64,000 nt of DNA from Rubrobacter calidifluminis. Lineage in GTDB: Bacteria > Actinomycetota > Rubrobacteria > Rubrobacterales > Rubrobacteraceae. Location: NCBI RefSeq assembly GCF_028617075.1, contig NZ_JAQKGV010000003.1:62001-126000 (forward strand). Reading direction: 5' to 3'. This document shows positions 12,257 through 18,331 of the stretch, in pieces. The position numbers and the translations under genes were made by a program. Numbering within the stretch: position 1 is the stretch's first letter; every line of letters starts with the position of its first letter. The notes beneath the pieces were generated by a model. It saw only the letters and a program-made list of their open reading frames with translations. It did not search any database and was not told the DNA's origin.

Positions 12257-13324
12257 GTGAAGAAATCTCTGCTCAGCATCCTGCTCGGGCTGCTCCTGAG
12301 CGCCGCCGGCGTGATCGTCGCCGCCCTGAGCGTCAAGGGCTCGCTCAGGATAGTAGAGATCTGGCCCATAGTCGTCGGTGGTGTCGTCACGCTCGCGGTG
12401 TGGGTCGTGCAGGGTGCCACCCTGGCCGTGCTCTCACGCCACGACGTGGAGGCGAGTCCTGTCGCAGAGCGGCACCTCCTGGGCCTTCCCCTCTTGAAGA
12501 CGACCCGCGTCTACCTGGTCACCCAGGCGGTCGGCGCGATCACCCCGTTCGCCGGCGGGGAGGTGGCCGCCCAGATCATGGAGCTCAAACGCCTGGGGCT
12601 CCCGGCGGACAAGGGCAGCGCCGTGGCGACCGTCAGGGCGATAGCGAACGTCACCTCCCTCGCCATCGGCGCCGTAATCGGCCTGTTCTTCGTCTCCCAC
12701 GTCCCGTTCGTCGGCAGGGTAGAAGCCAGAGCCCATCAGGCCCAGAACGCCGGCATCCTGTGGCCTCTGGCCGGCGTCTTCGTCGGGGTGGTCGTGCTGC
12801 TCGCCGCGGGCGGCTTCGCGGTGCGTCGCTGGAGGAAGAGGCGCGAGCGGGATGAGCATACCCCAGAGAGCTCATCCCCCTCCTGGAGAGAGCGCCTCAC
12901 CAGATTCTTCCGCAACTACAGGGACGACCTCCTCCTGCTCTGGCACGACAACCCGAAAGGCGTTGTCGCCGCCTTCGCCCTCATGGCCGTCTTCTGGCTG
13001 CTCTACCCCCTGCTCGGGGTTCTCGGCCTGCTCGCCACCGGATGGTCCGGGGAGCACTGGATCGCCGTCTTCACCGCCCAGTACATCCTGTTCATCGTCG
13101 TGCCCTTCGCCCCCACTCCGGGCAACAGCGGCGCCGCCGAGGTCGCCTTCGTCGCGCTCATGAACGCCTACGTCGGCCACGGCTCGCTGCTCGCCGGCGT
13201 CATCGTCTGGCGCTTCCTGAACCACTACTCCGAACTCATTGCCGGAGCCTTCCTCGCCGGACCCAGCATCTGGGACGACATCAAAATAGCCCGGGACGAG
13301 CTGGCCTCCCAGAAATCCGGCTGA
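12257..13324 (+). CDS. YbhN/UPF0104-type integral membrane protein (LPG-synthase TM-domain family)
   Basis: A 355-residue protein with about eight membrane segments, of the lysylphosphatidylglycerol-synthase transmembrane-domain family (YbhN/AglD). Near the C-terminus it has PTPGNSGAAEVAF, a variant of the PxPGGxGxxE motif of this family, and an early AVGAITPFAGGEVAAQ block. It lacks the soluble transferase domain of MprF, so it is probably a lipid-related membrane factor rather than an aminoacyl transferase. The GTG at 12257 follows GGGAGAG and precedes the basic RVKK and first helix; an ATG at 12215 without a ribosome site would add 14 residues. Confidence 0.85.
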   Translation: MKKSLLSILLGLLLSAAGVIVAALSVKGSLRIVEIWPIVVGGVVTLAVWVVQGATLAVLSRHDVEASPVAERHLLGLPLLKTTRVYLVTQAVGAITPFAGGEVAAQIMELKRLGLPADKGSAVATVRAIANVTSLAIGAVIGLFFVSHVPFVGRVEARAHQAQNAGILWPLAGVFVGVVVLLAAGGFAVRRWRKRRERDEHTPESSSPSWRERLTRFFRNYRDDLLLLWHDNPKGVVAAFALMAVFWLLYPLLGVLGLLATGWSGEHWIAVFTAQYILFIVVPFAPTPGNSGAAEVAFVALMNAYVGHGSLLAGVIVWRFLNHYSELIAGAFLAGPSIWDDIKIARDELASQKSG

Positions 13325-13553: not shown

Positions 13554-14453
13554 ATGTATCTCCGGATAGACAAGCTGCAGGTGGAGCTGCCGATGCCGGA
13601 GGAGCCCGATCCCAACGCCGCCGCGGCGGTGCAGGAGCTCCTCGGGGGGCGTTTCGGTGAGATGTCGACGCTCATGAACTACACCTACCAGTCGTTCAAC
13701 TTCCGGGGGCGCAAGAAGGTTAAGCCCTACTACGACCTCATCGCCAATATAGCCACCGAGGAGCTCGGGCACATCGAGCTGGTAGCCGCCACCATAAACA
13801 GCATGCTCACCGGTGCCGCCGGCGAGACCGAGGACGGGCATGCGAACCCGACGAGCACACCTCTCTCCGGGCTCACGGGCGTACGCAACACCCATCACTT
13901 CATCAACAACGGGGCCGGCGCGCTCGTCGCCAACTCAATGGGGCAGCCCTGGCAGGGTGATTACGTGTTCAACTCCGGTGACCTCGTGCTCGACCTCCTG
14001 CACAACTTCTTCCTGGAGAGCGGGGCGAGGATGGGCAAGATCCGCGTCTACGAGATGACCGACCATCCGGTCGCCCGTGCGATGCTCGGTTATCTGCTCG
14101 TGCGCGGTGGCGTGCATCAGGTGGCCTACGCCAAGGCGCTCGAAGAGCTCACCGGCGCCAACGTCACCAAGATGCTCAACATCCCGAACATCCCCAACTC
14201 TGAGTTCCCGGAGACGAAGAAGTTCCTCGACTCGGGCGACCACCGCACCCTCTACCGCTTCTCGCCCGACGACTTCAAGGATATCGGCAAGATCTGGAAG
14301 GGGCCGCACCCCGACGACGGCCAGGAGGTCAGGGTGCAGGACGGCCCGCCGGAGGGTGGTCAGCCGGCCGATCCGCCGGAGGAGCCCAACGTCTACGCAC
14401 CGGGTTATCATCCGGGAGAGCTCGCCGAGATCGCCCAGCGTCTCCTGAAGTAA
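13554..14453 (+). CDS. Manganese catalase (non-haem)
   Basis: A 299-residue dimanganese catalase that disproportionates hydrogen peroxide. Four-helix-bundle metal ligands are visible: E36, E70 and H73 (ATEELGHIE), a glutamate in FFLESGARMGK and a histidine in GGVHQVAYAKALEELTG. A proline-rich C-terminal tail (PPEEPNVYAPGYHPGE) is usual for the longer subfamily. A strong GGGGAGG precedes the ATG by 7 nt. It is monocistronic by layout: a 220-bp leader with a PerR-like box upstream and a strong hairpin terminator downstream. A peroxide-responsive promoter would fit. Confidence 0.95.
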   Translation: MYLRIDKLQVELPMPEEPDPNAAAAVQELLGGRFGEMSTLMNYTYQSFNFRGRKKVKPYYDLIANIATEELGHIELVAATINSMLTGAAGETEDGHANPTSTPLSGLTGVRNTHHFINNGAGALVANSMGQPWQGDYVFNSGDLVLDLLHNFFLESGARMGKIRVYEMTDHPVARAMLGYLLVRGGVHQVAYAKALEELTGANVTKMLNIPNIPNSEFPETKKFLDSGDHRTLYRFSPDDFKDIGKIWKGPHPDDGQEVRVQDGPPEGGQPADPPEEPNVYAPGYHPGELAEIAQRLLK

Positions 14454-14505: not shown

Positions 14506-14580
14506 TTCGTACGTTCTTCCACAGGCTCGGGCGCCGGAGCGGATAGAATCAGGGTGCCAGGCGAACAGAAGGAGGGTTTC

Positions 14581-15129
14581 GTGCCCGGAGAAGCAAGCGG
14601 CATAGAGGATTTCGGAGAGGTGACGTTCAAGCGTGCCGACGGGACGGAGGTAAACCTCACCGAATTGCACGGCGGGCGTCCCCTCGTCCTCGCCTTTCTG
14701 CGGCACCTCGGGTGAATATTCTGCCGCCGGTGGGTCGCGCAGTTGCGCGGCGGGAGCAGAGAGTTCGAGAAGAGAGGCGCCCGGGTGGCGCTGGTGAGCA
14801 TGGCCGATCCTGAGCAGACCGCGCGGTTCTGCGAGAAGATGGACCTGCCCTTCGAGTGCCTCTCCGACCCGGAGCGGCACGCCTACCGGGCATTCGGTCT
14901 CAGGCGCGGCAACATCCTGGAGGTCGCGGGGCCGCGCAACTGGGGCAGCGGGATCCGGGCGGTACTCGAGGGACAGAGACAGGGACCGACGGCGGGTGAC
15001 CCGATGCAGCTACCCGGGGCCTTTGTCTTCGACGCCTCAGGGAGGCTGCGCCTGGCGCACTACGCCCGCGCCTCGGCGGACAACCCACCAAACGAGGTGC
15101 TCCTCGAAGCGCTCGACGGTGGCCGGTAG
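14581..15129 (+). CDS. SelL/peroxiredoxin-like selenoprotein (UxxC)
   Basis: A thioredoxin-fold, peroxiredoxin-like protein. From the GTG at 14581, which has a strong AGAAGGAGGG six bases upstream, the frame encodes a normal AhpC/TSA-type N-terminus (GRPLVLAFLRHLG), meets TGA at 14713-14715 (codon 45), and continues as IFCRRW and on to 15129, 182 residues in all. The TGA stands exactly at the peroxidatic cysteine position of the LRHxGCxFCR motif, giving U45-I-F-C48. Residues 60-180 continue the fold (FDASGRLRLAHYAR near the end). Standard gene callers would report only the 128-residue piece from the ATG at 14743. A TGA nonsense mutation is the alternative, made unlikely by exact Cys replacement and a downstream hairpin. 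It lies between manganese catalase and a small unknown gene, consistent with peroxide defence. Confidence 0.85.
14713..14760 (+). promoter_or_regulatory. Selenocysteine codon and candidate SECIS of the SelL-like gene
   Basis: After the UGA at 14713-14715, bases 14734-14740 (GTCGCGC) pair with 14745-14751 (GCGCGGC; one U-G wobble), giving a 7-bp stem with apical loop AGUU at 14741-14744, 26 nt after the UGA. An outer helix CTGC (14721-14724) with GCAG (14756-14759) can close it. A G within the first two loop positions and this distance fit general bacterial SECIS rules, but the match is less exact than for fdhA. Confidence 0.65.
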
Positions 15130-15153: not shown

Positions 15154-15585
15154 TTGAATGACGCGCTTCAGAAGGCGCAAGCCTATCTGGACATGCTCTC
15201 CCGGGATACCATGGAGCTCGCCTGGGGCCGGAGAACCGCTCAGGATCGGTACAGGATCATGCTCGCCGCCCTCCTCTTCGGGGACGAATTCGAGCGTCGC
15301 ACCCGGCATGGCCTACCAGCCGACGAGCCGGGAGAACGCCGGCTCCTGATGGATCTCATGAGCGCGGTCATAGACCGCTTCGCGGATCTGGAGGGTCTGG
15401 ACCGGGAGGAGGCCGCCGCCTTCCTCGGAGATCTCACCAACCGCGACCACATACTGGAGCTCAACGAGGTCATCGAAACCTTCGAGCAGGAAGACTGCCA
15501 GAGGAGCCTCGACGAGGTGTTACGCGAGGCCGTCGGGCGGCGGAAGGAACGCCGGGTCTGGGCCCGGCACTGGAGCTCAGGATAA
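15154..15585 (+). CDS. Hypothetical helical protein
   Basis: 143 residues from a TTG start preceded by AGGAGCAGG at ~6 nt. I do not recognise the family. The sequence is predominantly helical and acidic (SAVIDRFADLEGLDREEAAAFLGDL), with one cysteine near the C-terminus and no signal peptide or membrane segment. It begins 24 bp after the SelL-like gene and is probably cotranscribed with it, so a redox or stress association is possible, but only from position. Confidence 0.65.
   Translation: MNDALQKAQAYLDMLSRDTMELAWGRRTAQDRYRIMLAALLFGDEFERRTRHGLPADEPGERRLLMDLMSAVIDRFADLEGLDREEAAAFLGDLTNRDHILELNEVIETFEQEDCQRSLDEVLREAVGRRKERRVWARHWSSG

Positions 15586-16152: not shown

Positions 16153-16160
<8 letters not shown>
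15591..16160 (-). CDS. DUF924 family protein
   Basis: A 189-residue TPR-like helical protein of the DUF924 family, recognisable by ILRFWFGE near the N-terminus, [19 protein letters not shown], and [13 protein letters not shown]. Function is unknown in the literature known to me. The GTG at 16160 overlaps the stop of the permease gene by 8 bp; an ATG at 16142 gives a start six residues shorter. It converges on the hypothetical gene ending at 15585. Confidence 0.88.
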
Positions 16161-18095
<1,935 letters not shown>

Positions 18096-18099
<4 letters not shown>

Positions 18100-18158
18100 C
18101 TCGAAACGCTCCGTGCGGGTTCTCCCACCCGCGGACAGCGAAAGATGGTTCTCATCAT
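18096..18158 (-). CDS. Short upstream ORF (20 codons) coupled to the permease
   Basis: Immediately after the riboswitch, AGAGGAAGGGG is followed by ATG ATG AGA, a 20-codon frame ending in TGA that overlaps the permease ATG as ATGA. This strong ribosome site lies outside the permease frame, so ribosomes probably load here and reinitiate on the permease. A sequencing frameshift extending the permease N-terminus is the other explanation. Confidence 0.45.
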
Positions 18159-18168
18159 CCCCTTCCTC

Positions 18169-18303
18169 TCACGCCTGCGGGGTTAGCTGTCGGGTTCGGG
18201 CCGGAAGAGAAAGCCCTACGCTCTCGTGGCGATTCACCCCGGAGGGAAAACCCCTCTTTCTACGGGTCCCCCGTCCTCCGGTCTCCCCGGAGGTTCGGCG
18301 ACG
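18169..18303 (-). promoter_or_regulatory. ydaO-yuaA (cyclic di-AMP) riboswitch
   Basis: On the minus strand the element runs from CGCCGAACCTCCGGGG through ACGGGGGACCC, GGGGTGAATCG and GTAGGG to CCCGAACCCGACAGCTAAC followed by CCCGCAGGCG. These are the conserved blocks of actinobacterial c-di-AMP riboswitches, with CGCC/GGCG forming the P1 ends. The 3' end lies about 10 nt before the ribosome site of the leader ORF. This class normally turns expression off when c-di-AMP is high. Confidence 0.93.
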
Positions 18304-18331
18304 GTCTGGCTCTCCGTCCATGGCTTCCGGA

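Follow-up and report, generated by a model that had tools for sequence, protein, structure and literature searches.

A SelL-related, peroxiredoxin-like selenoprotein gene with a UxxC active site in Rubrobacter calidifluminis

Within the 64,000-nucleotide stretch of DNA analysed here (the window), we found a peroxiredoxin-like gene whose reading frame runs through a UGA at codon 45. Judging from comparison with homologous sequences, this codon almost certainly encodes selenocysteine, which would make the product a true selenoprotein (Table 1). The encoded protein has a thioredoxin/peroxiredoxin fold and a UxxC active site, in which Sec45 probably serves as the nucleophile and Cys48 as the resolving residue, with re-reduction by a thiol. 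A Sec protein with this proposed chemistry is, taken as a whole, the best explanation of the locus, and one that we regard as highly likely.

Table 1 Features of the selenoprotein locus and its surroundings in the window
Feature	Position	Strand	Basis or remark
Sec formate dehydrogenase alpha subunit, fdhA	5-2521, TGA at 1873	-	NF041513 (formate_DH_Act), 1501 bits; cut by window edge
Manganese catalase, upstream neighbour	13554-14453	+	Also adjacent in a single congener
Region of the ribosome binding site, AAGGAGGGTTTC, ahead of GTG	14569-14580	+	Sequence
SelL-related, peroxiredoxin-like selenoprotein gene, 182 residues	14581-15129	+	GTG start, TAG stop
In-frame TGA, codon 45, read as selenocysteine (UxxC with Cys48)	14713-14715	+	Homologue alignment
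Cys48 codon, second residue of UxxC	14722-14724	+	Aligned with Cys of FSPVC (2cx3) and DWSSVC (L026)
Bacterial SECIS hairpin, 7-bp stem, AGUU loop 14741-14744	14734-14751	+	Position kept in relatives; stem covaries; not found in Cys forms

As the initial annotation described, the gene opens at a GTG preceded by a AAGGAGGG ribosome site and meets a TGA at codon 45; from the GTG (14581) to the TAG (15129) it forms one frame, in which that TGA is the sole in-frame stop. Past the TGA, the next available start is a TTG at 14743, which yields a 128-aa ORF and costs exactly the 54 codons that ordinary gene calling had been expected to miss, so that automatic annotation of the gene would drop the active site. 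This shorter ORF lends some credit to the view that the locus is a decayed gene, in which a once Cys-containing peroxiredoxin-like gene has acquired the TGA as a nonsense mutation and at most the 128 downstream codons are translated. The TTG ORF, however, has neither the active site nor the first strands of the fold, and dN/dS upstream of the TGA is 0.07 (37 codons, against the closest relative, the congener G001), indicating purifying selection and thus a coding constraint that reaches upstream of the TGA. A start conserved only after the TGA, a pattern that had been named in advance as speaking against a selenoprotein, was accordingly not what we found. Downstream of the TGA, dN/dS against the same congener is 0.15, and comparisons with more distant relatives gave noisier values of 0.13-0.44.

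We surveyed relatives together with 296 genomes of the phylum and aligned 32 homologues, with identities ranging from 89% down to about 30%. At the column of codon 45, TGA is present in 26 of them, spread over many families of the phylum, and Cys (TGT or TGC) in the remaining six, with no other codon observed. The proposed alignment of U45 with Cys in homologues was thereby borne out, and the relatives carry Sec or Cys rather than lacking both. An in-frame UGA in a column that holds Cys in homologues is one mark by which we recognised a bacterial selenoprotein, along with a SECIS hairpin just downstream and the presence of selA, selB, selC and selD in the genome; all three were found. The recurrence of the identical TGA across so many families refutes gene decay in practice and, with the conserved and covarying SECIS described below, leaves that explanation very improbable. 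Less probable still is that the UGA is read as another amino acid (e.g. Trp) or by near-cognate read-through, given that the column alternates with Cys only, that a SECIS is present and that the Sec machinery is complete. In one genome, two adjacent SelL-related TGA genes (L005 and L057, G059:C130:56113-57197) apparently represent a tandem duplication.

The hairpin that follows the TGA has the sequence GUCGCGC-AGUU-GCGCGGC. A 7-bp hairpin with an AGUU loop had been reported 26 nt past the UGA, and it is real, but nucleotide 26 marks the start of the loop and not that of the hairpin. By the criteria of bSECISearch, a bacterial SECIS is a hairpin just downstream of the UGA, with a G within the first two loop bases and a loop 16-37 nt after the UGA; here the loop starts at nucleotide 26, G occupies its second position and the stem covaries. 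Because folding of the single sequence against dinucleotide shuffles gave a weak signal (z -1.4), we relied on comparative tests. The position of the hairpin is kept in most Sec forms, and the hairpin is absent in the Cys forms. Across 19 distinct Sec-form sequences with the AGUU apex, 94.7% of cells pair and compensatory changes occur in five of the seven pairs, a covariation score reached by none of 500 shuffles; when the stem partner was slid, covariation was lower on every measure except one tie. With codons redrawn and the protein held fixed, the hairpin of this gene had p = 0.03 and the Sec forms exceeded chance (pooled p about 1e-10, a value overstated since the sequences are related), while in the Cys forms the hairpin did no better than chance under the same randomisation (0.68).

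The apex itself is read as CAG-TTG at +25 to +30 in 20 of the 26 Sec forms, and TTG is rare here, used for 16 of the 342 Leu codons of the neighbouring genes. The other six TGA forms are missing the AGUU apex: four constitute a second subgroup with a CGUGA loop at nucleotide 21 (G019, G218, G281 and G299), G197 has a GUC loop instead, and G139 has no clear hairpin after the TGA. In G059b the AGUU apex is present and the stem is interrupted.

The genome carries the genes for decoding. selA, selB and the tRNA-Sec gene (selC) are clustered at G000:C16:75877-79158, all over their cut-offs, and selD, likewise over its cut-off (L038, G000:C2:170543-171460), itself has an in-frame UGA in an AGUASK (UxxK) motif, so that SelD is probably a selenoprotein as well. 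All four genes that the initial annotation had proposed to search for are therefore present, including selB and selC, whose absence it would have taken as evidence against Sec. The Sec-encoding fdhA that it had noted in the same window is also there, at the window start on the minus strand, with the Sec motif IENQARI-U-HSSTVPGL. SelB and tRNA-Sec almost certainly decode the UGA of codon 45 as selenocysteine, guided by the hairpin that follows it inside the coding sequence.

Among the more distant Sec-form genomes, selB was found over cut-off in 14 of 19, and tRNA-Sec in one of the remaining five. Four draft genomes carrying the TGA form thus had neither selB (1e-60) nor tRNA-Sec (1e-9); two of these are 83% complete, and G100 and G218 are rated 98% and 94%. 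They may have missing contigs or may contain genes without a decoder. The presence of selB was rejected as a discriminator between Sec and Cys forms, as most Cys-form genomes carry it too. Elsewhere in the genome we observed a second Prx-like selenoprotein candidate, L070 (G000:C8, near 12986-13219, minus strand), with the motif FYRGDW-U-PYCNGQL. Its relatives carry TGA in G002 (L075) and nine other genomes of the family (L013, L016-L019, L021, L022, L027 and L030) and Cys in L008, L010-L012, L014, L015 and L020. Most of these L070-type TGA genes have AGCU-GGUC-AGCU downstream of the TGA, with a GGUC loop like that of E. coli fdhF.

Read through the UGA, the protein scored 157 bits against NCBIfam NF040769 (SelL-related redox protein) over nearly the full length, exceeding the curated cut-off of 120 bits and placing it in that family. 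Its Pfam matches are AhpC-TSA (72 bits), AhpC-TSA_2 and Redoxin. Among solved structures, the best sequence matches are to prostamide/prostaglandin F synthase (PDB 9us9, E 4e-8) and to the Bcp-type peroxiredoxin 2cx3. An AlphaFold model built from the single sequence, with a modest pLDDT of 63 and taken for fold class only, matched Bcp1 (a BCP-type peroxiredoxin), AhpE and ResA. A search for related loci among genome contigs and viral contigs returned no relatives, and tblastn against plasmids gave only distant matches of ~30% identity, annotated as peroxiredoxin-like. The earlier description as a SelL/peroxiredoxin-like protein with UxxC stands as regards the peroxiredoxin likeness and the motif, but the family is SelL-related and not SelL, which has a diselenide-forming UxxU; here a TGA is followed by TGC.

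The claim that the TGA falls exactly at the peroxidatic-Cys position did not survive alignment. Ser of FSPVC in 2cx3 lies opposite Sec45 and its Cys opposite Cys48, and the peroxiredoxin L026 reads GDW-S-SV-C against GDW-U-PY-C in a related selenoprotein; Sec45 stands where T/SxxC has its Thr/Ser, and Cys48 where it has the peroxidatic Cys. Peroxiredoxins use the Cys of T/SxxC as their peroxidatic residue; in thioredoxin-like CxxC motifs, nucleophilic attack comes from the N-terminal residue. Peroxiredoxins (T/SxxC or TxxU) have Thr/Ser three residues before the peroxidatic Cys, the place that Sec45 takes here. Published reviews likewise list TxxU for Prx and UxxC for the Prx-like group (PMC13188914).

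This register makes the motif a UxxC in the thioredoxin CxxC register, with Sec at the attacking N-terminal place, and as a sequence-based prediction it speaks for a reductase, of the thiol:disulfide or the peroxide type, that would pass through a selenenylsulfide intermediate. Sec45 would attack the oxidised substrate, be it a disulfide, a hydroperoxide or an endoperoxide, Cys48 would resolve the intermediate as a selenenylsulfide, and a thioredoxin-type or low-molecular-weight thiol would re-reduce the protein. The alignment of Cys48 with the Bcp-type peroxidatic Cys might instead point to a true peroxidase selenoprotein, in which Cys48 is peroxidatic and Sec45 resolving. We consider this unlikely, because Sec, the better nucleophile, sits at the position of the CxxC nucleophile and the protein has RHLGU in place of the Pro-x3-Thr motif that peroxiredoxins carry. 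Placing the selenium relative to the peroxidatic Cys, with Sec45 as the putative nucleophile, moves the expected chemistry from a peroxiredoxin-type peroxidase towards a thioredoxin-like reductase.

Selenium-based defence next to manganese catalase had also been suggested. The adjacency is real, in this genome and, judged by the size and order of the ORFs, in G001, but it is a genus-level link that says little on function. Other neighbours flank the selenoprotein gene in G009 and G055, for which reason we discarded the catalase neighbourhood as a clue to function, and the catalase is probably not a functional part of the locus. In the congener G002, the survey of relatives and phylum genomes found the selenoprotein gene to be absent. 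Directly downstream, a 143-aa ORF (window 15154-15585) has no Pfam or NCBIfam match, and farther on a c-di-AMP (ydaO/yuaA) riboswitch (window 18157-18310, minus strand, 88 bits) precedes a large membrane permease-like gene (16153-18099).

Compared with known systems, the protein resembles the other NF040769 members of the phylum, whose first motif position is occupied by Sec or Cys, and we found nothing that separates it from them. SelL, a diselenide protein of aquatic organisms (PMC2397514) described from fish, invertebrates and marine bacteria (Shchedrina 2007, as cited in PMC2397514), is likewise peroxiredoxin-like with Sec first in the motif, but is characterised there by UxxU with a diselenide, in contrast to UxxC here. 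SelU/PRXL2, the prostamide/prostaglandin F synthase (9us9), shares the LRRxGCxxCR motif; it is distant, has Cys where this protein has Sec, and its prostaglandin substrate is not expected in bacteria. Rather speculatively, and with a low chance of both being right, the near-fixed CAGUUG apex of the SECIS might constrain the protein (AQLR) and be usable as a phylum-wide signature for unannotated selenoproteins, and the protein might be the bacterial, Sec-dependent equivalent of prostamide/PGF synthase, with lipid endoperoxides or hydroperoxides as its substrates. Peroxiredoxin Q/Bcp (2cx3, 3drn) has the same fold, with its peroxidatic Cys in the place of Cys48, but carries T/SxxC, so that Sec here stands in the Thr/Ser place. 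Pfam family and motif are shared with the Prx-like thiol:disulfide oxidoreductase selenoprotein (PF00578, UxxC/UxxU), a high-confidence entry in catalogues of bacterial selenoproteins (PMC13188914, PMC9312934); that entry is broader than the protein studied here, and we liken the two by its description. Several Prx-like UxxC groups were also recorded in the GOS survey (PMC2398784), and a 2006 survey listed five selenoproteins in Rubrobacter xylanophilus (PMC1794560). Since UxxC Prx-like selenoproteins are already catalogued, the gene at 14581-15129 adds a solid, well-documented member to a known group, together with a clean set of SECIS elements that can train predictors.
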